Assembly: GCF_036880985.1 (NCBI RefSeq)
Contig: NZ_JBAJNO010000009.1
Coordinates: forward strand, 2,516,501 to 2,580,500
DNA length: 64,000 bases
Direction: 5' to 3'
Source of the DNA: Limibacter armeniacum
GTDB lineage: Bacteria > Bacteroidota > Bacteroidia > Cytophagales > Flammeovirgaceae
Of this stretch, positions 51,590 through 64,000 are shown piece by piece; within the stretch, counting starts at the first letter, position 1; each line of letters begins with the position of its first letter. Both the position numbers and the translations under genes were made by a program. The notes below the pieces were generated by a model that worked only from the letters and a program-made list of their open reading frames with translations, was not told the origin of the DNA and made no database searches.

Positions 51590-54259
51590 TTACCGTATAT
51601 CTTTTTGAAGTGTCTGTTCTTCTTTTTCAGTTATGACAGCATCAAACTGTAAGTAGTTCACTAACTCAATAGCTTTTTCCTCACTGATTTGAGGCATTGT
51701 AGTAAGCCATTGCTGTAACTGAGGTAATCCATTATCCATCTCCTTCAAAAGGCTTATCGCTTTTTCAGGATTGTACTCCATATAGGTCGGGGTACTAATC
51801 AGATTCAAGATTGGGTTAGGAATGGTTGCTCCCCAATCATTTTTAGCTGACGCTAACCTTAACTGCTCACCCAATTGTTCAAGTCTTCTGAATAAACCTG
51901 CCTTGCCATTAACCCATTCCTGTTGCTCAAGCATTCCAGTTTGGTATTCCACTTCAATTATTACCTTTTCATCCAATGAGAAATTACCCGTATGGATCAC
52001 CTGTGTCAGCCTCATAGCATTATATGGAAAAGCATCATCAGATAAGCTTTGTCCGTTGACCAATACTTTTTCGACTGGCAAACTATTCAACAGGTTCAAA
52101 GTGTAAGCACGCTTTTCCGGTTTATCCTGATAGACTCCTTCTGTCGGGAAAATAGTCAGCCTGATACCCGAAGCAGTCTTTTCAGATTTCACCCTTGTCC
52201 AAGCAAATGCTGACTTCTTATACCCCTGTCCATCACCATTGTCTTCATAAAAGCGGATATCATCCGTTCCGCCCGGCACCAAGGAGAAAACTATCTCATT
52301 AGGCTGATCCTGCAAGTTGCTTACTTTGGGGTACATCGGAATAATGCTGCCTACCTTGACATAAAGAGGTATTTCTTCAAAAGAAAAGCGTCTGCGGATT
52401 TCCTGACCACCTTCCAGTAAGGCCCCTGTTGACCACTCATACCATTGTCCTTCTGGAAGCCAAACAGTTTGGGTCGCTAATCTGGTTTGCTTATCTGCTG
52501 CACTGACTATTGGCGCAACCAACAGCTTATCACCCAGCATATATTGCTGATCTGATGAATATGCTTTTTCACTATCGGGATAATCATAGTACATCGGGCG
52601 GCAAATAGAGATGCCTGTATCATAAGCCAGACGGGCTGCTGTATAGAGATAAGGAACCAATGCATAGCGGAACTGAACCGCATCCCGCATCATCGGGAAA
52701 TACTCAGGGTATTTCCAAAAACGTCGCTCTGCTACATCACTTTTGGAAGCATGCGTTCTGAAAATCGGGCTAAGCGTTCCAAACTGGATCCAGCGCAGAT
52801 ACAGTTCACCATCTTTTGCCAGTTCCTTATCCTTATCAATATGGCCACCGATATCATGACTCCAGTAACCGTAACCCACATTGGATGCCGTTGCAGTAAA
52901 GTAGGGCTGAAAAGCCAATGACTCCCATGAGATCACCGCATCACCGGAAAACCCAACCTGATAGCGGTGGTTACCCAAGCCACCCCAACGGTGGAACAAC
53001 AGCGGTCTCTTTTCAGGATATTGCTTTTCCATGTCCGTGAAAAATACATAGTTCAACCAGAAGGTATTGCTTAATCCCTTCATGTGTTTGCTTTCCTGCC
53101 ACTGCTGCCAGTCAATCCACCAGAAGTCATTACCCAGCTTTTCCTTAGGGCGCAGCATATATTCAAAATAGGCTTTTGCCCATCTCTTGTCTGATAACTG
53201 GTATTCGATCCAACCTTCTTTTGTTGTGTCTCCATCAAGTGCCTCTACCATCGGTTGATAATTGTCTTCCATCGGCGCAATACCGTCAGCAGGGTGAAGG
53301 TTCAGCGCTGTCTTCAGCTTTTCGGATGCTGTCCAATTCAGGAATTTATCAGGTTGAGGAAAAAGGTTTTTGTTCCATGTATAACCTGTCCAACCCAACA
53401 TTCCATTGAAAGGGGTCTTTTCGGGATTATTGGAAGTAAGTCCGTAGGTTTCATGCCAATCCATATCCATGATCATGACATCTACAGGAATATCATAACT
53501 ACGCAATGTGCTGACCAACTCTTTCATCTCCCGATCAGCGTATATCCAGTAGCGGGACCACCAGTACCCAAATGCGTATCGAGGAGGCAATGGAATTTTC
53601 CCTGCCACTTTGGTAAAGTCTGCCAGGGCATCCTTGTAAGCATGACCATATCCAAAGAAATACCAGTCCTGATTGTTACCGGTATTCCGTTCTGTCACCC
53701 AATCCCAATCCTGATTTCCATCAAAAAGTAACCGATCAGAATCATCAACTAGACTCCAGCCATCTTTGGAGATAAGTCCTTGCTCCAGTTCCAGTTTCTT
53801 GCCATCCCAATAGCGGGTTGTGCCTTCAAAACCATCCACTGTTCGGGTAGTACCTTTCAGGTTTGCAGTATCCACCATATCAGGATACCAAACCTGCTTT
53901 TTGTCATTTAGCAGAAAAGTAATTTGAAGGTTTTTCTTTTCGAAAGGACCGGAGTCTCGCAAATAGCGCAATGTCAGTGAATCAGTTTTCACCTCAAGCC
54001 ATTTGCCAGATTTCTTGGTTTTGAAGGGGGGAACAGGAAGGTTTCTGTTGATAAATGCCAAAGAAGCCTTATCCTCAAAATGTGTGTTTTCTGAATATTC
54101 CATCCGGATCAGCCTTGCCGTCAGGACGGTAAACCGGACGTTGCCATCTGTAATTACTGCTTCAGGGTTTGCAGTTGGGTTGTTGACAGCCTGACCAAAT
54201 GTGTTCAACACAATAAGGAACAGACAAAACATTAACCCAAAGAGTATTTTCTTGTACAT
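51590..54259 (-). CDS. GH31 family glycosidase (alpha-glucosidase/xylosidase type)
   Basis: An 889-residue exported enzyme from ATG 54259 (TTG-initiated upstream extension dropped). Signal peptide ends near residue 23 (NTFGQ). N-terminal beta domain, then the (beta/alpha)8 catalytic domain with YAFGYWWSRYW, IMDMDWH, nucleophile Asp383 in FWWIDWQQW and acid Asp440 in GFSGDAVISWESL, then VGYGYWSHDIGGH. The C-terminal beta domains are followed by a 90-residue helical extra (LLKEMDNGLPQLQQWLT). Substrate is an alpha-linked sugar. It is encoded between GH3 and the sulfatase on one strand. Confidence 0.93.
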   Translation of the reverse strand: MYKKILFGLMFCLFLIVLNTFGQAVNNPTANPEAVITDGNVRFTVLTARLIRMEYSENTHFEDKASLAFINRNLPVPPFKTKKSGKWLEVKTDSLTLRYLRDSGPFEKKNLQITFLLNDKKQVWYPDMVDTANLKGTTRTVDGFEGTTRYWDGKKLELEQGLISKDGWSLVDDSDRLLFDGNQDWDWVTERNTGNNQDWYFFGYGHAYKDALADFTKVAGKIPLPPRYAFGYWWSRYWIYADREMKELVSTLRSYDIPVDVMIMDMDWHETYGLTSNNPEKTPFNGMLGWTGYTWNKNLFPQPDKFLNWTASEKLKTALNLHPADGIAPMEDNYQPMVEALDGDTTKEGWIEYQLSDKRWAKAYFEYMLRPKEKLGNDFWWIDWQQWQESKHMKGLSNTFWLNYVFFTDMEKQYPEKRPLLFHRWGGLGNHRYQVGFSGDAVISWESLAFQPYFTATASNVGYGYWSHDIGGHIDKDKELAKDGELYLRWIQFGTLSPIFRTHASKSDVAERRFWKYPEYFPMMRDAVQFRYALVPYLYTAARLAYDTGISICRPMYYDYPDSEKAYSSDQQYMLGDKLLVAPIVSAADKQTRLATQTVWLPEGQWYEWSTGALLEGGQEIRRRFSFEEIPLYVKVGSIIPMYPKVSNLQDQPNEIVFSLVPGGTDDIRFYEDNGDGQGYKKSAFAWTRVKSEKTASGIRLTIFPTEGVYQDKPEKRAYTLNLLNSLPVEKVLVNGQSLSDDAFPYNAMRLTQVIHTGNFSLDEKVIIEVEYQTGMLEQQEWVNGKAGLFRRLEQLGEQLRLASAKNDWGATIPNPILNLISTPTYMEYNPEKAISLLKEMDNGLPQLQQWLTTMPQISEEKAIELVNYLQFDAVITEKEEQTLQKDIR

Positions 54260-54289
54260 GTTACAGATTGGTTTGATAGAAGTGGGTGG

Positions 54290-54322
54290 TAAGAAAAAGA
54301 CTGGACCCAAACGGGTCCAGCG
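54290..54322 (-). terminator. Terminator between GH3 and GH31 genes
   Basis: On the minus strand GCTGGACCC, loop GTTT, GGGTCCAGT followed by a T-rich run. It is 30 bases after the GH3 stop codon and could be a partial terminator tuning GH31 level. Confidence 0.8.
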
Positions 54323-54353: not shown

Positions 54354-56678
54354 CTACCTTCTTGCTATAGCGCCAGACTGTGTCAGCTTAAAGCTAGACT
54401 CCTTCACATTGTCTGAGCTTGTCCCCACAAACACTTGGAAGTCGCCTTCTTCAACACCGTAAGACATATCCTTGCGGTGGAATGCCAAATCTTCTGTCTT
54501 GATCTCGAACGTAACGGTTTTGGTTTCTCCTTTTTTCAGGAAGATTTTCTCAAAGCCTTTCAGTTCTTTCACTGGTCTTGTCACTGAGCCTACCAAGTCA
54601 CGAACATACAACTGAACTACTTCGGCTCCGTCGTATTTACCTGAGTTGGTTACCTCTACTGAAACCGTGATTTTATCATTCATACCCAATGTTGTCTTGT
54701 CAAGACGAACATCACTGTATTCAAATGTGGTGTAGCTTAAGCCATGACCAAATGCATAAAGTGGTGTATTTGGTGCGTCCATATATTTTGAGCGGTACTT
54801 GTTCGCTGGATCATTATGTCCCTGCAAGCCAAGCGGACGCCCTGTATTCTTCATATTGTAGTAGATTGGCACTTGTCCCAGTTTGCGAGGGAAAGTAACT
54901 GGCAACTTACCTGAAGGATTGTGATCACCGAACAATACGTCAGCAATGGCATTACCACCTTCTGTACCTGCAAACCAAGTTTCCAACACGGCATCTACTG
55001 CCTCATTTTCTTTCTCCATCTCCAACGGACGACCGTTCATCAGTACCAGTACCATTGGCTTGTTCAGCTTCTTCAGCTCAAGCAGCAATTCAGACTGTAC
55101 ACCAGGAAGCGTGATTTCCGTACGGCTTGTTGCTTCACCGGTTTGTTCCTGTGCTTCACCCATTGCCAATACAATCACATCTGATTGCTTAGCTGCCTTG
55201 ATTGCTGCTGCAAACCCTGACTTATCCGTCTCTCCAAGTCCGTAACCACAGCCTTTTGCATAATTGATTTTCACATTACCCGCTACATTCTCAATACCTT
55301 CTTTCAAGCTGACAGGTACTGTCGTACGGTTTTTCCATCCGCCACCTGCTGATGCCCATGAACCATGCATATCAGGACGGCTATCTGCCAATGGCCCAAT
55401 CAATGCAATTGAACCTGTTTTCTTCAATGGAAGTGTTTCGCTTTCATTCTTCAGCAGTACCATTGACTTACGTGCTACGTCACGCGCCGCATCTCTATGT
55501 TCCTTGCTCAGGATTGTCTTTTTCTCTCTTTCTTCATCACTGTAGCGGTATGGATCTTCGAAAAGTCCCAGACGATATTTCATCTCCAAGATTCTTCTCA
55601 CCGCCAAATCGATCTGCTGCTCGTTTACCTTACCTTCTTCCAGTGATGTTTTCAAGTTCTGGTCATATACTCGACCTACCATATCCATATCTACACCAGC
55701 ATTCAGCGCCAACTCACCTGCTTGCTTCTCGTCCTTTGCATAACCGTGAGGTACCAGTTCATTGATTGCTGTATAGTCTGTTACTACAAAACCTTCAAAT
55801 CCCCATTCTTTTCTAAGGATTTCATCAAACAGGTATTCGTTACCTGTTGCAGGTACACCATTCAGCTCATTGAAAGCTGTCATGAAAGTACCTACGCCTG
55901 CATCAATTGCAGCCTTGAAAGGAGGAAGATACACATCTCTCAACTCACGGTCAGACATGTTGGTGGTGTGATAGTCACGACCTGCCTGCGCCTGTCCATA
56001 AGCGGCAAAGTGTTTGGCACAAGCCACAATTGTATTCAGGTCTTTCAGGTTGTCACCTTGAAAACCTTTTACCCTAGCCTCAGCAATTCGGCTACCGAGG
56101 TACACGTCTTCGCCTGCACCTTCAGAGATACGTCCCCAACGAGGGTCACGTGCGATATCCACCATCGGAGCAAATGTCCAGTGAATACCTTGTGCCGATG
56201 CTTCTGTTGCTGCTACTCTTGCTGATGTCTTGATGGCATCCAAGTCCCATGAGGCAGACTCACCCAATGAAATTGGGAAGATTGTCTGGTGTCCGTGAAT
56301 AACATCATGACCAAAGATCAGTGGAATACCCAAACGTGTCTCTTCCACTGCCATTTTCTGAAGCTTTTTAGTATATGCTGCAGAGAATGCATTCAGGAAC
56401 GAACCTACACGACCGCTCTTTACAAGCTGCTCGAAGTTCTCATTAATAGTAGGTCCTGTAACATCCCACCCACTTGTCAACTGGGTCATCTGTCCGATCT
56501 TTTCCTCAATGGTCATATTGCCCATCAAGTCATCGATAAACTTGTCCATTTCGGCTTTGTTATCTTTCCAGATCATTGTAGAAACGGCTGTGTTACTTTT
56601 ATCTGCCGATTTGTTTGGGGAGCACCCCACCATGACACCCGCAAGTGCCAACATGGTCAGAGTCTTATTCATATTCAT
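54354..56678 (-). CDS. bglX: GH3 beta-glucosidase lipoprotein (BglX-like)
   Basis: A 774-residue periplasmic or surface glycosidase cleaving beta-linked glucose or xylose ends. Lipobox ends VMVGC (Cys19). GH3 N-terminal domain: IEEKIGQMTQLTSG, FGHDVIHGHQTIFP, AKHFAAYGQAQAGRDY, then the nucleophile Asp301 in GFVVTDYTAIN. (alpha/beta)6 domain with LIGPLADSR, MLLKNE-type SMVLLKNES and VLAMGEAQEQTGEATSRTE. C-terminal fibronectin-III-like domain with YDGAEVVQLYVRDLVGSVTRPVKELKGFEKI. It is the first gene of the left glycan unit and is divergent from the receptor-regulator. Confidence 0.94.
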   Translation of the reverse strand: MNMNKTLTMLALAGVMVGCSPNKSADKSNTAVSTMIWKDNKAEMDKFIDDLMGNMTIEEKIGQMTQLTSGWDVTGPTINENFEQLVKSGRVGSFLNAFSAAYTKKLQKMAVEETRLGIPLIFGHDVIHGHQTIFPISLGESASWDLDAIKTSARVAATEASAQGIHWTFAPMVDIARDPRWGRISEGAGEDVYLGSRIAEARVKGFQGDNLKDLNTIVACAKHFAAYGQAQAGRDYHTTNMSDRELRDVYLPPFKAAIDAGVGTFMTAFNELNGVPATGNEYLFDEILRKEWGFEGFVVTDYTAINELVPHGYAKDEKQAGELALNAGVDMDMVGRVYDQNLKTSLEEGKVNEQQIDLAVRRILEMKYRLGLFEDPYRYSDEEREKKTILSKEHRDAARDVARKSMVLLKNESETLPLKKTGSIALIGPLADSRPDMHGSWASAGGGWKNRTTVPVSLKEGIENVAGNVKINYAKGCGYGLGETDKSGFAAAIKAAKQSDVIVLAMGEAQEQTGEATSRTEITLPGVQSELLLELKKLNKPMVLVLMNGRPLEMEKENEAVDAVLETWFAGTEGGNAIADVLFGDHNPSGKLPVTFPRKLGQVPIYYNMKNTGRPLGLQGHNDPANKYRSKYMDAPNTPLYAFGHGLSYTTFEYSDVRLDKTTLGMNDKITVSVEVTNSGKYDGAEVVQLYVRDLVGSVTRPVKELKGFEKIFLKKGETKTVTFEIKTEDLAFHRKDMSYGVEEGDFQVFVGTSSDNVKESSFKLTQSGAIARR

Positions 56679-57082: not shown

Positions 57083-57132
57083 AAGAAATCCTGAAATATT
57101 GACAGATATCAACAAGAAATATTCTGAAATAT
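57083..57132. repeat. Imperfect direct repeat, candidate operator
   Basis: AAGAAATCCTGAAATAT at 57083-57099 and AAGAAATATTCTGAAATAT at 57114-57132, 31 bases start to start (about three helical turns). They abut the promoter region of the receptor-regulator. Confidence 0.55.
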
Positions 57133-57145
57133 GTTTTTTTTACGC

Positions 57146-57153
57146 CAATTTTG
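57146..57153 (+). promoter_or_regulatory. Near-consensus -7 box of the receptor-regulator gene
   Basis: CAATTTTG differs from TAnnTTTG by one base (C for T). A T-run (TGTTTTTTTT) just upstream could supply the -33 region. It lies 37 bases before the ATG. Confidence 0.35.
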
Positions 57154-57189: not shown

Positions 57190-59130
57190 ATGAAGTGTCA
57201 TAAACACACAGGTCTATTAAGCAATTCCACTTGGCTTTTGCGAAATGGGCTAATTGCCTTGCTTATGGTGGTTGGTCTGGCACAAACATTTGGTAAACCA
57301 AACCACTCGATTGAAACAATCTACTTGAGAGATGGACTTGAAGAGCAGATTCTGAATCTTTCCCATATCATGCACTGGAAAGACACTACCCAGTTGATGA
57401 CTTTTCAGGATATCCTAAAGCAGCAGCCTGAGTTTCTGCTCGCTCCCAAGTACAACAAAGACAACTTTGATATCAATAGTGCACTTTGGCTCAAAATTCA
57501 ATTACACATTGCTGAAGACTCCAAGCGACAATGGCTAATTGAGTTTTACGACCAAAGCATTGATTACATTCATGCCTTCATTCCCCAGAAGTCGGGCGAG
57601 TACAAGGAAATAACCTTAGGGGATTCCTTCGATTTTACCCATAGGGATGTACACCATAAAAACTTTATCATTCCTCTTGACCAACAGATTGACTATGAAA
57701 AGCCATTCTACTTTCAGGTCAAGTCCAATAAAGTAGCTGACCTCCACTTAGCATTCAGAAGTACCAACCGACTGATTAGCTATGCTGTTACCGAGTATCT
57801 GCTGTTAGGGCTATTGTATGGTGCCATTATCATTATGGCTGTTTACAACCTGCTTACATGGATTGCCATTCGAGAAAAAAAATACCCATACTATATCCTG
57901 CACATACTTGCTATAGGTTTCTTTAACCTAAGTGAGGATGGACTAGGATTTCATTACCTGTGGTTCCACGAACCAGCCATCAATGTCTATGCTGAACACC
58001 TGTCTACTTTTGCTGTAGTTATCAGTGCCATTGTCTTTATTAGAGACTTCTTGGACACTTCCAATGCCTTCCCAATTATTAATAGGGCACTACAGGGAAT
58101 TGCCATAATTCACAGCATCCTGTTTGTGGGATCATTATTCTTCGGGCATCAGCTTTACGACTCTTACCTTTTAAGTACTACTACCATTCTGGCGATGGTA
58201 CTAGTAAGTGGTATTGCCTTGAAGCAGCAGTATAAGTCTGCAAGGTTCCTGATGCTTGCTTGTATCTGCCTGCTAACTGGTGCATCAATCAAGGGTATGG
58301 TGGCTGTTGGCATTATCCCTTTTTCTATCATTACACACTACAGTCTTCGTATTGGTTTCGGGTTAGAAATGCTCTTCCTGTCATTTGCGCTATCAGATAG
58401 GTTAAAACTCCTCAAGGAACGTGAACAAAAAGCCCAACAACAGATTATTGAGGAACAACAGGAAAAGAAGATTGCTCAGCAGAAAATTATTGAGGAGCAA
58501 CACAAGCGTATGGAGCTTAAAGAGAAAATCAATGAGGAACTTGAAATCAAAGTCAGGGAACGCACAAAAGCACTCCAACACAGTGAAGAAGAATTGAGAG
58601 TTGCCAATGAGGCGCTATCTATTGCCAACGGAAAGCTCAACAAACTGAACCATGTATTGGACGTCGATAACTATAAGTTAAAAACCAAGGTACTGAAAGA
58701 GCGGGAGAACAGGTTTGTCAACAAGTTGATCAGCTTTGAGGAGTTCTCCGAGCTATTTCCTGACAGGTTAAGTTGCTTCCGTTATATTCAGGACCGCAAA
58801 TGGAAAGATGGGTATTCATGCCGTAAATGCAACAATGACAAGTATTTTGAGGGGACTAAGAAGTTCTCTCGCCGCTGTACCAAATGTGGCTACAATGAAT
58901 CTATCACCACAGGTTCAGTATTTCAAGGAATCAAGTTTGACATTGTCAAAGCATTCTACCTGTGTTATATCTTCGAGCACTATCCTAAGAAGTACACACT
59001 TCAGCAGCTTGCAGATATGCTTGATATGAGACGAAATACTGTTTGGAGCTTCAAGAAGAAGGCAGAAGAAGCTAGCAATCCAAAATCAGGTATCCTGCTG
59101 CCTAGCTTTATGCCTGAGGAAATGAAATAA
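57190..59130 (+). CDS. 7TMR-DISM receptor fused to an IS1595-type transposase zinc ribbon and helix-turn-helix
   Basis: A 646-residue protein. Signal peptide about 1-34; 7TMR-DISMED2-like extracytoplasmic beta domain about 40-195 (FDINSALWLKIQLH, WLIEFYDQSIDYIHAF); seven transmembrane helices about 200-405 (LLLGLLYGAIIIMAVYNLL opens them); coiled coil 405-505 rich in Glu, Gln and Lys; then the C-terminal segment SFEEFSELFPDRLSCFRYIQ, zinc ribbon cysteines Cys544, Cys547, Cys563 and Cys566 (SCRKC and RCTKC), the TTGSVFQGIKFDIVKAFYL segment and a helix-turn-helix YTLQQLADMLDMRRNTVWSFKKK (602-624). This tail is the DNA-binding part of IS1595 transposases, without the DDE domain. No kinase is present. 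It lies amid glycan genes and probably regulates them. Confidence is high on the domains, lower on function. Confidence 0.85.
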   Translation: MKCHKHTGLLSNSTWLLRNGLIALLMVVGLAQTFGKPNHSIETIYLRDGLEEQILNLSHIMHWKDTTQLMTFQDILKQQPEFLLAPKYNKDNFDINSALWLKIQLHIAEDSKRQWLIEFYDQSIDYIHAFIPQKSGEYKEITLGDSFDFTHRDVHHKNFIIPLDQQIDYEKPFYFQVKSNKVADLHLAFRSTNRLISYAVTEYLLLGLLYGAIIIMAVYNLLTWIAIREKKYPYYILHILAIGFFNLSEDGLGFHYLWFHEPAINVYAEHLSTFAVVISAIVFIRDFLDTSNAFPIINRALQGIAIIHSILFVGSLFFGHQLYDSYLLSTTTILAMVLVSGIALKQQYKSARFLMLACICLLTGASIKGMVAVGIIPFSIITHYSLRIGFGLEMLFLSFALSDRLKLLKEREQKAQQQIIEEQQEKKIAQQKIIEEQHKRMELKEKINEELEIKVRERTKALQHSEEELRVANEALSIANGKLNKLNHVLDVDNYKLKTKVLKERENRFVNKLISFEEFSELFPDRLSCFRYIQDRKWKDGYSCRKCNNDKYFEGTKKFSRRCTKCGYNESITTGSVFQGIKFDIVKAFYLCYIFEHYPKKYTLQQLADMLDMRRNTVWSFKKKAEEASNPKSGILLPSFMPEEMK

Positions 59131-59204: not shown

Positions 59205-60599
59205 TTATAAAACCTGCTTGGTCTGTTTGAGTCCCAGCTTTTCCAAAGCCTTTGGAATCTCAGGATTTTTCATGAAGTTTTTCCAGAGTAACCCTGTTCT
59301 ATAGTTTTCAATCATGATGATCATTGGTCCTTGATCCAGAGCTAGGTAAGCAGGTGCATACCAATCATATTTCAAGTTAAATGCATCCTTGAAACCATAT
59401 TCCTTCCACATATTCCCTCCATGTTCGTGCAGGAGATACCGTATAAAAGCCAATGACTTTTCGGGAGTATAGACAATGGAAGAAATCGCCGCAGTAGGGG
59501 ATATCGTGCCGTTATCACCTCTTCTCCCAACTTCAGCGGCATGTACTCTATAGCCTTTCTCAGGGTCGTCACTTGATGTTAATCCCCAACAGTTTTTAGG
59601 ATAACCATGCTTCAAACACCAATCATAACAATAATCCACCATTGCCTTATTGTGCGTAGCATAGTCTGCATATCCTGCCTCTTGTACATATTTATCCGTG
59701 ATATAAGGAGTTAATCCCAGAAACGAATAATGAGTAAAAAATAGCGGCCCTCCACTGTTGTTGTTCTCTCCAATCTGAAGCCTTTGAACATAATCGCCCT
59801 TTTCCTTGAAACGGTCATTATGGTCTATAGCCCAGCCTGTTTGATATAAACTTGGTTTGATCGGATGGGTAGGGGATGCCACCGCCAATACATAAGCGAT
59901 CATGCTCTCATCAAATCCCATAATTGGCATATTGATTTTGAAACCATAATCAGGAGACCAATGCCAATAAAGCCAAGGTTTCCCGTTGGTATACCAATCC
60001 CATTCAGCCTCTTCCCAAAGTCTGGTAATTGTACTTCTTAAGTTTACCTCTTTATCAGAATTGCTGTCAAAGTATTCTCTGACCGTCAATAAACCTTGCA
60101 AAAGAAATGCTGACTCTACCAGATCACCACCATTATCATATTTAGAAAGGGTTGAGACTTTTCCGGTATTGCCATCATACCAGTGTGCCCACATTCCATG
60201 AAAGCGTTTACAGCTTTCTAGAAAACTGACAATCTTACTCAGATGATTTACAGCCTTGTCCCTTGTAATCCAACCACGCTCCACTGCTACAGGAAATGCC
60301 ATAACACCAAAACCGGTACCCCTTGTTGTGACTATATTCTCAAGGTTTGGTACTCCTGCCGAGCCTCTTTTGGCTGGTTCACTTCGCTCTCTTGCCATAC
60401 CACTTTTTGCATGGGCAAAATCATAGAAATACCTAAAGGTCTGGTGCTGCACCGTATCCAATAAAGCTTCTTCAGGCAAGCTTGCCATTTTTTGAATACT
60501 TTCCTCCTCATTTCCTTTTGTAGCTGCTCTGTTACAGCTTACCAGTCCTGCACAAACCAAAAACAGCAGGAAGCTTATTGCTTTATACCATTTTCTCAT
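59205..60599 (-). CDS. GH144-type glucoamylase-like lipoprotein (possible beta-1,2-glucanase)
   Basis: A 464-residue protein from ATG 60599 (GTG one codon upstream). The lipobox ends GLVSC (Cys22). The sequence follows the glucoamylase-like (alpha/alpha)6 barrel family: HQTFRYFYDFAHAKSGMARERS, TTRGTGFGVMAFPVAVERGWI, FHGMWAHWYDG, GGDLVESAFLLQGLL, LYWHWSPDYGF, SPTAAISSIVYTPE. Characterised GH144 enzymes are endo-beta-1,2-glucanases or release glucose from such glucans. It is 30 bases after the GH2 gene, same strand, so one operon. Confidence 0.85.
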   Translation of the reverse strand: MRKWYKAISFLLFLVCAGLVSCNRAATKGNEEESIQKMASLPEEALLDTVQHQTFRYFYDFAHAKSGMARERSEPAKRGSAGVPNLENIVTTRGTGFGVMAFPVAVERGWITRDKAVNHLSKIVSFLESCKRFHGMWAHWYDGNTGKVSTLSKYDNGGDLVESAFLLQGLLTVREYFDSNSDKEVNLRSTITRLWEEAEWDWYTNGKPWLYWHWSPDYGFKINMPIMGFDESMIAYVLAVASPTHPIKPSLYQTGWAIDHNDRFKEKGDYVQRLQIGENNNSGGPLFFTHYSFLGLTPYITDKYVQEAGYADYATHNKAMVDYCYDWCLKHGYPKNCWGLTSSDDPEKGYRVHAAEVGRRGDNGTISPTAAISSIVYTPEKSLAFIRYLLHEHGGNMWKEYGFKDAFNLKYDWYAPAYLALDQGPMIIMIENYRTGLLWKNFMKNPEIPKALEKLGLKQTKQVL

Positions 60600-60629
60600 C
60601 ACGAGATTAAATTTGTTAGTATCACTTCA

Positions 60630-63311
60630 CTATTGCTTTCTGACTTTCAAAGCACTAACCAATGGCTGCCCATGAAGGGACTCAAATACAATTTGAATAC
60701 CTTCACCATTTTCAGCTTTCACTGAGTAAGTCTTTTCAACTCCATAGAAAGCACCAAACTCTTTTCCTATATTAAAACCTTCCAAAACAGTCTTACCATT
60801 CATCTTGACATTGAATATTCTCACATCTTGACGTGGTGTCTCATTCTGTTGTTTGGAAGCTGACAATTCATAAATGGCTGATTCATTAGCGACCTTGGCA
60901 TTTGGTTCTACAAAATACAGTGTTACCTCATAATTGCCATCAGTCACGTCAAAGGTATAACCTTTAGGGTTAACTCGCATATTTTGGAAAAGTGGGTCAT
61001 TGTCTGTCCCTTCGATATTTCTTGGTACTCCTTGCCAAGTTCGGTTGTCTTTTCGGTAAGGCTCCCCTTCAATATATCCCCATTGGCCTTTCTGATACTT
61101 TCTGTCCGGCATCCAAACCTCTCCTGTAGTTTCATCATTGAACCAGTAGCCTGCTCCTGCATTGACATTGATTTCTCCAAAGTTGTATGCTGACAATTCC
61201 TGTGGCACAACGTCGAAGGAAATAATCAATTGATCTTCTGTTTTTCCAGCTATCGCTTTCAACGTGTTATCTCCAGACTTAAAAGGAACAGAGAAAACCA
61301 CCTGTTTTTCTAAAGCATTCTTTATTCCCAATGATTTTCCATTATGAAAAAGTTCAACGGAAGGCTGATTCGTAAATATGATAACATCCTGATTGCAAAC
61401 ACCTTTACCACTTTCACCTTCCATTGCCTGTCTTTTAGCAAAAGCACCTCCTGTAATTTTCAATACAGGTTCCTTCAGTAAATATGATTGGTAGAGGTAG
61501 TACACATCCTTTGGCTGACGGTCATAATTCATCAAACCTTTTTGGTTGATAAACGGTCTTGTATCATGTCTTCCTGCTGACCCAAAGTCGGCAAAGTTCC
61601 ATGCCGTCATTCCGGCCATATAATCTCTTTCAAGTATTTGTGTTAGGTAGCCACTGTGATACAAGCGCTGATAGTCTGCCGAAAAGTCATAGATCTTGGG
61701 CGTAAATGTATTGATACGTGTATCAGCCCCCGGACCATACTCTGAAAGAAACAAAGGTCTTTCTGGATGGTTTCTATGCTCTTCATCCAAGAACTTTCCT
61801 AACCCATAGATATCATCCACATACCATCCATAATACAAGTTCCAACCTATTAGTTGTGGAATGTCTGCGATTCCCGTTTCATTATATACCTGATCTCCGT
61901 GAAGTGCCATGACTGTAATGCGCTCAGCATCTTCGGTTCTGGTTATATCTTCTAACTTACGTGCCAGTCTCAATGTCGCATCGATCTTCGCATCCTTATC
62001 TTCTTTGGTCATTTTTCGGTTAAAAACCATACGGATAAAGATCTCATTCATATACCCCCACATCACGATAGATGGGTGGTTATAATTTTGACGGATGTGC
62101 TCCAGTTGCATATCAGTACATACCTTGAAATACTCTTCTGTATCTGTTACATCATTGATTACAGGAATCTCTGACCATGACAACAACCCTAACTCATCAC
62201 AAGCCTTGTACACCTCAGGATCATGCGGGTAATGGGCGATTCGGATAAAGTTGGCTCCCATCTCCTTCAATAACTTCATGTCCTTCCGGTGAATCGCATT
62301 TGGCAATGCATTCCCTAAACCCTTATAGTCCTGATGACGATTTGCACCAACTAATTTGAGGTGCTTGCCATTAAGGAAAAAGCCTTTGTCTGCATCTATA
62401 CTAAACCAACGAAAACCAAATGATGTCTCTACTTCATCCAGTACCTTTCCAGTTTTCTGTTCAATCAGCTTCGTCTCTACTGTATACAAGTAAGGATCTT
62501 CTGGTGACCATAGGTGTGGTTGAGTAATCGCTTTACTCATTAACATAAAGTCAGTAGTAGTACCTTGAGCTAACTTCAGCTTTTGACTCGTTTCCATTAC
62601 AGTATGTCCATCAGCATCTTTCAACACTGATTTTACCAACAACCGTTTTGTCAATGCTTCCTCATTTTTGACCTTGCCCCAAACTTTCAGTTTCCCTGAT
62701 GCTTCGGATAAATCTTCCGCCTTTACAAATACTCCATCAGATGCATAATTATCCATCTCAAAGTGAGTAGGGGACACTGTGATCAAATGAACATCTCGAT
62801 AGATACCTCCATAGAATGTAAAGTCGGCATCCAATGGAGGTATATTCCAGTTATGACGGTTATCTAGTTTTACTCGAAGTTGGTTGGTTTTCCCATATTG
62901 AACTATGTCTGTGATATCATATCGGAAAGCATTATAACCTCCTCTGTGATGACCAATTGGTTCATGGTTCAAAAACACTTGTGTTTCCTGATTTGCTGCT
63001 TCAAAGTGAAGGTAAATCTTTCTGCCCTTCCAATCTTCAGGAATTATGACAGCCTTACGGTACCAACCTACGCCACGGTAATATTTGCCATTGCCCTCAA
63101 AAGCATCTTTCTGGTTCCATGTATGGGGAATATTTACTGTCTGCCAGTCTGACTCCTCCACTTTAGTGTCTTGCCTGAAATCTCCTTTGTGAAATTGCCA
63201 CCCTGTATTGATGGTTTCTGAATGCCTGCCCTGCCCTAATGCCGTACTCCATAAAATAGCCTGAATCAGTATCAGCACTCCCTTACACATTGTCATTGTA
63301 TTGTATTTCAT
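60630..63311 (-). CDS. GH2 family beta-galactosidase-like protein with C-terminal malectin-like domain
   Basis: An 893-residue exported enzyme (signal to about residue 27). GH2 N-terminal jelly roll (WQTVNIPHTWNQKDAFEG, GVGWYRKAVIIP), immunoglobulin-like domain and TIM barrel. Acid/base Glu423 in MWGYMNEIFI, nucleophile Glu524 in PLFLSEYGPG. The last 160 residues (from INVNAGAGYWFND) are a malectin-like carbohydrate-binding module. It cleaves beta-linked galactose or another beta-sugar; exact specificity is open. It follows the SusD gene by 168 bases with a hairpin in between. Confidence 0.92.
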   Translation of the reverse strand: MKYNTMTMCKGVLILIQAILWSTALGQGRHSETINTGWQFHKGDFRQDTKVEESDWQTVNIPHTWNQKDAFEGNGKYYRGVGWYRKAVIIPEDWKGRKIYLHFEAANQETQVFLNHEPIGHHRGGYNAFRYDITDIVQYGKTNQLRVKLDNRHNWNIPPLDADFTFYGGIYRDVHLITVSPTHFEMDNYASDGVFVKAEDLSEASGKLKVWGKVKNEEALTKRLLVKSVLKDADGHTVMETSQKLKLAQGTTTDFMLMSKAITQPHLWSPEDPYLYTVETKLIEQKTGKVLDEVETSFGFRWFSIDADKGFFLNGKHLKLVGANRHQDYKGLGNALPNAIHRKDMKLLKEMGANFIRIAHYPHDPEVYKACDELGLLSWSEIPVINDVTDTEEYFKVCTDMQLEHIRQNYNHPSIVMWGYMNEIFIRMVFNRKMTKEDKDAKIDATLRLARKLEDITRTEDAERITVMALHGDQVYNETGIADIPQLIGWNLYYGWYVDDIYGLGKFLDEEHRNHPERPLFLSEYGPGADTRINTFTPKIYDFSADYQRLYHSGYLTQILERDYMAGMTAWNFADFGSAGRHDTRPFINQKGLMNYDRQPKDVYYLYQSYLLKEPVLKITGGAFAKRQAMEGESGKGVCNQDVIIFTNQPSVELFHNGKSLGIKNALEKQVVFSVPFKSGDNTLKAIAGKTEDQLIISFDVVPQELSAYNFGEINVNAGAGYWFNDETTGEVWMPDRKYQKGQWGYIEGEPYRKDNRTWQGVPRNIEGTDNDPLFQNMRVNPKGYTFDVTDGNYEVTLYFVEPNAKVANESAIYELSASKQQNETPRQDVRIFNVKMNGKTVLEGFNIGKEFGAFYGVEKTYSVKAENGEGIQIVFESLHGQPLVSALKVRKQ

Positions 63312-63479: not shown

Positions 63480-64000
63480 TTAAATAGCTGGTTCTCTCAA
63501 AAGAGGATTCAAGTCTTCCTGTGCCAATGGAATAGGCAGGAACTCTGACTCACCAGGTATGAAGCCTGGTAGTACCGATTGTGCCTTTCCTGTTCTCACC
63601 AAATCCATAAAGCGGTCACCCCACTCACATGAGAATTCGGCACGACGCTCATTGATAATATCGTCAAGCGTTGGAGATCCAATTGGCTCTAATCCTGCAC
63701 GCACCCTTACTTCATTAAGTGGTGTTGCAGCATCTCCACCAACTTTCAGATTTGCTTCTGCATTCATCAACAATACGTCAGCATAGCGTAACACACGGAT
63801 GTTATTGTTTGCTCCATAGTTATTACGGCCTTCTGTCAGTTGGTTTTTAGGTGTGTAAGCTTTTCCATTGTAATGAGCTTTTAACCCATCCAAGTAGCTA
63901 GGCACAAACTCTGCAATTTCATCACCTGCAGGTGTTGTTGCTCCTGACTCCAATACCGCTACATCCCAACGAGTAGAGTCATTTCTTTCGTTCAGGAAGT
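63480..64000 (-). CDS. susD: SusD-family outer-membrane glycan-binding lipoprotein (C-terminal part, cut by window edge)
   Basis: The reading frame is open to the right edge of the window, so about 173 C-terminal residues are seen. It starts at the edge with FLNERNDSTRWDVAV, typical of the SusD fold. It continues with IRVLRYADVLLMNAEANLKVGG, LNEVRVRAGL, DDIINERRAEFSCEWGDRFMDLVRTGKA and a C-terminal EFLPIPLAQEDLNPLL. SusD lipoproteins cap a SusC TonB transporter and bind glycan; SusC is expected just beyond the window. It heads the right-hand minus-strand glycan unit. Confidence 0.9.
   Translation of the reverse strand, partial: FLNERNDSTRWDVAVLESGATTPAGDEIAEFVPSYLDGLKAHYNGKAYTPKNQLTEGRNNYGANNNIRVLRYADVLLMNAEANLKVGGDAATPLNEVRVRAGLEPIGSPTLDDIINERRAEFSCEWGDRFMDLVRTGKAQSVLPGFIPGESEFLPIPLAQEDLNPLLREPAI

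Follow-up and report, generated by a model that had tools for sequence, protein, structure and literature searches.

Glycan use in Bacteroidota is usually explained by regulation through SusR, hybrid two-component systems (HTCS) or sigma/anti-sigma pairs. SusR, like the CadC/ToxR-type proteins, is a membrane-spanning one-component regulator, and the HTCS of Bacteroidota carry Reg_prop/Y_Y_Y periplasmic sensors and are found beside glycan genes. Among 7TMR-DISM receptors, the extracellular domains show a likeness to carbohydrate-binding domains. In addition, domains of transposon proteins have become transcription regulators, as in the TnpB-derived TldR proteins of bacteria and the transcription factors that arose by transposase capture in vertebrates.

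In the ChiS family, a C-terminal DNA-binding domain is carried by varied sensors, including 7TMR-DISM in the legend of Fig. 5; ChiS itself is linked to chitin, and the domain is described there as a helix-sheet-helix variant of the helix-turn-helix (HTH) in proteobacterial genomes (PMC8092284). The signalling helix has been treated separately (PMC1592074). No description of a receptor-zinc ribbon/HTH architecture, or of a zinc ribbon/HTH unit as the output of 7TMR-DISM receptors, was found in the full-text literature searched, which takes in a minority of subscription papers and preprints. In public records, such proteins from Aureibacter, Persicobacter and Flammeovirga are labelled '7TM diverse intracellular signaling domain-containing protein'.

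A 7TMR-DISM receptor with a predicted DNA-binding C-terminus

In the window, that is, the whole 64,000-nucleotide stretch of DNA analysed, an unbroken frame with an ATG start at 57190-59130 (plus strand) encodes a protein of 646 aa with the following parts:

57190..59130, plus strand: putative membrane-bound regulator, 646 aa (7TMR-DISM, long helix, IS1595-type zinc ribbon/HTH)
57364..57756, plus strand: 7TMR-DISMED2 extracellular domain, residues 59-189 (Pfam, E 1.3e-23; beta-rich in the model)
57793..58401, plus strand: 7TMR-DISM_7TM, residues 202-404 (Pfam, E 2.8e-43; helices in the model between 192 and 405)
58402..58722, plus strand: long predicted helix, likely a coiled coil, residues 405-511 (model)
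58771..58893, plus strand: IS1595-type zinc ribbon, residues 528-568, with Cys544/547/563/566 (Pfam, profile match, conservation)
58942..59076, plus strand: three-helix HTH-like unit, residues 585-629 (domain model; profile match to the same IS1595 region)

The initial annotation had read this frame as a 7TMR-DISM receptor joined to the ribbon and HTH of an IS1595-type transposase. Indeed, the frame is continuous, and both sensor domains scored far above their Pfam cut-offs (83.9 bits against 22 for 7TMR-DISMED2, 148.7 against 29 for 7TMR-DISM_7TM, PF07695). The protein thus combines the seven-helix region, DISMED2 domain and intracellular output domain of the 7TMR-DISM class. Pfam search of the 646-aa protein revealed no kinase and no DDE domain, both of which the initial annotation had described as absent, and no receiver domain, and the HTCS set (histidine kinase, receiver, AraC HTH) was absent from it at E <= 1.

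The flanking genes were as follows:

51590..54310, minus strand: GH31 enzyme (PF01055, E 3.1e-57)
54354..56678, minus strand: GH3 beta-glucosidase (bglX-like), divergent neighbour (PF00933, E 5.2e-75)
59205..60602, minus strand: PF10091 'Glycoamylase' protein, convergent neighbour (E 5.9e-63), which we take to be GH144-type
60630..63311, minus strand: GH2 enzyme with a malectin domain (PF02836, E 1.1e-34)
63480..64000, minus strand: SusD, cut by the window end (PF07980, E 7.5e-21)
65001-68051 (extended coordinates): SusC, just beyond the window (assigned by position and by its match to the SusC of locus L072)

Only the regulator lies on the plus strand, the flanking GH31, GH3, PF10091, GH2 and SusD genes all being on the minus strand, and SusC is 5.9 kb from it. 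The receptor gene is therefore set among glycan-degrading genes, as the initial annotation had it, with GH31 and GH3 on one side and PF10091, GH2 and SusD on the other. The window locus is itself a polysaccharide-utilisation locus (PUL), in the order SusC, SusD, GH2, PF10091 protein, regulator (opposite strand), GH3 and GH31. An AraC-family gene (HTH_18, AraC_binding) was also observed at extended coordinates 69565-70443 (L206:6565-7443), adjoining a 114-aa ORF, and is a possible second regulator of the locus. That the receptor replaces SusR or hybrid two-component systems, as the initial annotation put forward, is conjectural.

We consider it probable, from sequence comparison, that the protein regulates glycan-use genes as a one-component transcription factor bound to the membrane, its DNA-binding unit having been taken from an IS1595 transposase. 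Sensing would fall to the DISMED2 domain in the periplasm together with the seven helices, the most likely signal being a product of glycan breakdown; the long cytoplasmic helix would relay this signal to the zinc ribbon and HTH unit, and probably pair it up; and this unit would bind the promoters of the adjoining polysaccharide-utilisation genes, a step suggested by the gene neighbourhood and, for some sub-clades, also by a candidate operator. The IS1595 N-terminal unit would have been captured, most simply once, and later joined to Reg_prop/Y_Y_Y sensors as well. DNA binding, action from the membrane and a glycan ligand are properties that we infer.

Genomic neighbourhood of related receptors

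The neighbourhoods of 63 loci were compared (the window, L072-L091, L126-L165, L204 and L205), which had been picked non-randomly from search listings; L092-L099 and plasmid loci were kept apart from this set, and L198 was dropped before the counts, its ORF call containing no domain. At 21 loci, the gene immediately downstream, in the same orientation and no more than 1.5 kb away, was SusC, versus none of 20 loci of DISM proteins lacking the domain (DISM-only) and none of 17 IS1595 transposase loci (Fisher p = 0.0021 and 0.0041, respectively; 1.9e-5 pooled). The window was scored 'no SusC' in these counts, its slice having ended at 64000. Since the loci are related, these p-values and the one given below for hydrolases overstate independence. 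Within 8 kb, SusC was found at 32 of the 63 sensor loci, 2 of the 20 DISM-only loci and 6 of the 17 transposase loci, and this last number makes the 8-kb figure alone unremarkable against the transposase control.

A glycoside hydrolase was encoded directly upstream at no fewer than 17 of the 63 loci (10 by Pfam, 7 by blastp), versus 0 of 20 DISM-only loci (p = 0.009), with GH3, GH5, GH9, GH10, GH18/19, GH81, GH97 and PF10091 represented; a lectin-like domain occurred on one neighbour of the DISM-only controls. Overall, 33 of the 63 loci had SusC downstream, a hydrolase upstream or both, and the other 30 lacked both a SusC gene immediately downstream and a recognised hydrolase immediately upstream, the scan having covered part of the neighbours of these loci. 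At some loci the neighbours had no glycan role (RND efflux, MatE, PriA, IMP dehydrogenase, DUF2339). Homologues beside glycan-use genes thus share the C-terminal domain, and DISM proteins without it are not placed there, which agrees with the initial annotation.

Annotated neighbours were GH97-bglX-sulfatase for the Aureibacter regulator, and GH3-GH16 as well as GH3-cellulase-GH2-[7TM]-GH16-SusC-SusD in Persicobacter. PF10091 neighbours were also found directly upstream in L138, L155 and L159, which form the clade next to that of the window (88/78); a beta-glucan specificity common to both clades is therefore possible.

Other arrangements were observed. In Flammeovirga loci L092-L095, the regulator was kept with no SusC adjoining and with the same upstream genes as L096, where SusC/SusD adjoin the regulator, pointing to gain or loss of transport genes beside a kept regulator. 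The related loci L149, L151, L152 and L156 had no adjoining glycan genes and carried a divergent outer-membrane efflux protein with an AcrB-type pump (scanned in L151). On plasmid p1 of Flammeovirga kamogawensis (L306:5998-12000), the regulator preceded genes for a ribokinase, a sugar transporter and an ADP-ribosylglycohydrolase-family protein, a set that points to ribose or nucleoside use and not to polysaccharide.

Upstream repeats and a candidate operator

Two features upstream of the regulator were considered:

57083..57132, no strand assigned: imperfect direct repeat, CTGAAATAT twice, 33 bp apart (copies at 57091 and 57124); present, not beyond chance
57131..57148, plus strand: ATGTTTTTTTTACGCCAA, weakly like the candidate operator of related loci (motif match)

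The initial annotation had put forward the repeats as a binding site. Their existence was confirmed, but not their role as an operator: when the 350 bp upstream were shuffled 40 times in 40-bp blocks, the repeats proved to be within chance (p about 0.18), and they recurred in none of the other upstream regions. Direct repeats beyond all 40 shuffles were found in three loci only (L074, L075 and L205), with unlike sequences.

The intervals between regulator and SusC in one family had in common a T-run followed by GTGA/GCGA and then A-rich bases. The consensus TGTTTTTTAAGTGAWAA, fixed after L072 and L086 had been seen, was met three times without mismatch in 14 genomes (~80 Mb), each time next to such a regulator; two of these sites are counterparts, and the intergenic stretch G000:C9:42585-42924, in the genome of the window protein, contains the exact motif. 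With up to one mismatch, 22 sites occurred in these genomes, of which 5 lay between a regulator and its SusC or GH81 neighbour, versus an expected 0.006 of 22 beside regulators (from 23 genes tallied by hand, 24 on recount). The sites beside regulators share the strand of the target gene and precede its start by 150-219 bp. When the pattern was reversed, 13 sites were obtained in the 14 genomes, none of them between regulator and target. Independent support for the motif comes to two to three loci, because L279 and L280 are counterparts and L288 belongs to the clade of the training locus L085.

A regular expression built from the loci of family f19 and L085 gave, in its first test, 12 matches in 30.6 kb beside test genes (6 overlapping or coinciding in L082 and 2 overlapping in the window), versus 6 in 61.5 kb of other intergenic sequence and 1 in 44.4 kb of control loci. 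It matched before 7 of 9 SusC genes with an adjoining regulator, versus 1 of 51 without; only L217 and L260 among these 9 were independent of its building (one of the two matched), L250 being a training locus. With two mismatches allowed, TGTTTTTTAAGTGAWAA occurred in 5 of 92 test regions versus 4 of 480 others (p = 0.007), and with three or four there was no excess over the regions before other SusC genes. Column permutations of the motif performed equally well in 47 of 150 cases. The eight named plasmid loci gave one match to the regular expression and no site within two mismatches, and the candidate operator was absent from most Persicobacter loci. It is a lead for some sub-clades and is not established for the window protein.

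At the window locus, ATGTTTTTTTTACGCCAA was the sole operator-like sequence, and it sits 42 bp before the start of the regulator itself; upstream of SusC, at a distance of about 1.5 kb and in the same orientation, is the AraC-family gene. Both observations would fit a regulator that controls only itself or distant genes, with the AraC-family protein (69565-70443) controlling the window locus. We regard this as unlikely because, in counts that covered the ribbon/HTH domain alone, it was this domain that tracked SusC across loci.

Structure models of the receptor and relationship of its C-terminus to IS1595 transposases

AlphaFold modelling of the full-length protein from 8 rows reached a mean pLDDT of 73 and showed, from the N- to the C-terminus, a helix, a beta-rich part (residues 44-191), helices from 192 to about 405, a long helix (385-511), the ribbon and three helices. 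Model confidence was below 50 over most of residues 468-511. The long helix, with this stretch of low confidence, could hide a cleavage site, from which the ribbon/HTH unit would be cut by regulated proteolysis to act as a soluble factor. Such release is decidedly unlikely, given that a coiled coil of 100 residues could by itself bridge the distance between membrane and DNA, as in other membrane-bound regulators.

Modelled alone, the C-terminal domain (mean pLDDT 83.6) formed a three-helix, HTH-like unit at residues 585-629, as the initial annotation led one to expect. Structure comparison gave weak matches only (Z <= 4.7), nearly all to DNA-binding HTH folds, including homeodomains, DeoR, AsnC/Lrp and sigma region 4, and Foldseek returned nothing for this domain at E <= 0.001. 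These matches are compatible with DNA binding and do not prove it. The search of PDB sequences for solved relatives yielded four chance-level matches (E 0.34 to 0.95), one of them a ribosomal protein.

The same genome encodes two further proteins of this architecture (625 aa each, 31% and 26% identity), and gave six matches to DISM proteins without the ribbon/HTH domain. In the window protein, Zn_ribbon_IS1595 matched residues 528-568 with E 0.0012 and 19.2 bits, below the Pfam cut-off of 25.4 bits, which both paralogues passed (40.7 and 36.2 bits); of the two domain assignments made beforehand, that of PF07695 therefore stood outright and that of the IS1595 ribbon was weak in this protein alone. 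The ribbon assignment became clear through the paralogues, the whole family and profile comparison. Indeed, all 16 members of the domain alignment A2 matched the ribbon family at E <= 0.1, and the profile of the 63 sensor domains aligned with that of eight IS1595 transposase N-termini over 127 columns, covering both ribbon and HTH (probability 99.9). About 125 C-terminal residues are thus homologous, end to end, to the IS1595 zinc ribbon and HTH. The four cysteines, reported as intact, were so, and were invariant in 63/63 homologues.

The sensor proteins have the N-terminal ribbon and HTH region of IS1595 transposases and lack the DDE catalytic domain, as had been noted for the window protein: a median of 18 residues followed the domain in the 63 sensors, versus 182 in 16 transposases. 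The NCBIfam model of IS1595 transposases, NF033547, was matched by the paralogues at positions 3-61 of 215 only, and not by the window protein. Homology of the unit to the transposase N-terminus is observed; that it descends from a transposase which lost its DDE domain is a direction we infer from the presence of IS1595 ribbons far outside the sensor group (6 of 14 control genomes). On contig C2 of the same genome, two IS1595-type transposase genes were observed at two places (L010 and L011), with a third that is broken (L012).

Zinc ribbons bind proteins and RNA besides DNA, and the PDB sequence search, with its chance-level matches only, included a ribosomal protein; the unit might accordingly be a protein- or RNA-binding output (for example to RNA polymerase, a sigma factor or a nuclease partner) and not a sequence-specific DNA binder. 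This seems very improbable to us, as the homology extends over the entire N-terminal region of the transposases, HTH included, the weak structural matches are nearly all DNA-binding folds, and a candidate operator occurs in some sub-clades.

Distribution, phylogeny and selection

The domain was matched at E <= 0.001 in 129 of 291 genomes of the order, transposases counted in, and lay inside an open frame of at least 470 aa in at least 84 genomes, with up to 14 domain matches in one genome among the matches listed. Among 395 sampled genomes of the phylum, only G424 and G533 outside the order had the domain in a frame of at least 470 aa. Named carriers were Flammeovirga species including F. kamogawensis, Flexithrix dorotheae, Persicobacter, Aureibacter and two MAGs.

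The sensor part was of the DISM type in 60 of the 63 proteins and of the Reg_prop/Y_Y_Y type in two (L088 and L091); the remaining protein was short (L090). This last one (L090:7926-8633, 236 aa) carries the zinc-ribbon/HTH unit with no DISM, and its gene diverges from that of a GH18/GH19 chitinase bearing a secretion tail.

In a midpoint-rooted tree of the domain, based on 133 alignment columns only, the 63 sensor domains fell on one side of a branch from 16 transposase rows (97/97; 96% of 200 bootstrap trees); L195, identical to L194, was left out. Both Reg_prop proteins fell among the sensor domains, L091 joining L145, a DISM protein of its own genome (94/84). Read most simply, this tree would reflect a single capture from a transposase, after which sensors were exchanged. 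The domain was more conserved than the rest of the protein in 18 of 18 close pairs, and dN/dS was 0.012-0.045 in the five close pairs with usable dS; these estimates show strong purifying selection on the close pairs.

In the tree, the nearest relatives of the sensor domains were divergent IS1595-like proteins of genome G447, of which about 20 were observed (L186-L193; ~310 aa each). In the eight distinct ones examined, both Asp columns were lost; the same columns held Asp in 8/8 ordinary transposases. These proteins were considered as a domestication intermediate. Several copies carry stops, and a close relative occurs in just one further genome (G721) among the 80 of that family, so that the set looks more like a local expansion than like regulators.

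The possibility that the frame is a sequencing fusion of two genes, which the initial annotation had raised against itself, was excluded by intact paralogues in the same genome and by unbroken full-length homologues elsewhere in the family and across the order, in many Cytophagales; these also occur in named Persicobacteraceae and Flammeovirga replicons. Together with selection and conservation, the intact homologues likewise rule out the relic of an IS insertion. A decaying chimera, in which a DISM gene was hit by an IS1595 insertion and the C-terminus has no function, finds some basis in the true IS1595-type transposase genes of the same genome, and is extremely improbable in view of the wide distribution, strong purifying selection, invariant cysteines, presence of the domain on other sensors, and the fact that no inverted repeats or DDE remnant were noticed.

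Proposed role and comparison with known systems

Overall, the initial annotation proved right in substance, and the architecture, homology, conservation and neighbourhood set out above are observed. Beyond the window protein, we lean towards a wider reading, in which one IS1595 capture gave Cytophagales a new class of transcription factors embedded in the membrane, as transposase-derived equivalents of SusR and HTCS; their unit would have multiplied, swapped sensors (DISM, Reg_prop/Y_Y_Y and a short membrane protein) and kept a recognisable operator in some lineages. The comparison suggests that a piece of a mobile element was turned into a switch for polysaccharide digestion. If so, a further class of regulator would account for glycan loci without SusR, HTCS or sigma/anti-sigma pairs, and would represent a bacterial transposase capture in which a membrane receptor has the DNA-binding part of a mobile element for its output. 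Through the candidate operator, the predicted DNA binding is open to direct test.

By their architecture, the sensor proteins remain distinct from IS1595 transposases (PF12760, NF033547), with which they share the zinc ribbon and the following HTH over some 125 aligned residues: they have no DDE domain, are fused to a membrane sensor and are not repeated as mobile copies. TldR and the vertebrate captures, unlike the present proteins, came from other nuclease or transposase families and are not placed on a membrane sensor. As in the ChiS family, a C-terminal DNA-binding domain occurs on varied sensors, including 7TMR-DISM; by description, that family differs in its helix-sheet-helix domain, with no zinc ribbon mentioned in the parts of PMC8092284 considered, whereas the present unit is apparently transposase-derived and found in Bacteroidota.

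The HTCS are approached by 2 of the 63 proteins, which have a Reg_prop/Y_Y_Y sensor part; no histidine kinase or receiver is present here, however, and the DNA-binding unit is not of the AraC type. Architecture and neighbourhood bring the window protein closest to what is expected of a SusR-like PUL regulator, namely a membrane sensor with a C-terminal HTH beside SusC/SusD. As SusR is described, both are membrane-spanning sensors with no phosphorelay; they differ in that the sensor is here a 7TMR-DISM receptor and the putative DNA-binding unit an IS1595 zinc ribbon with its HTH.
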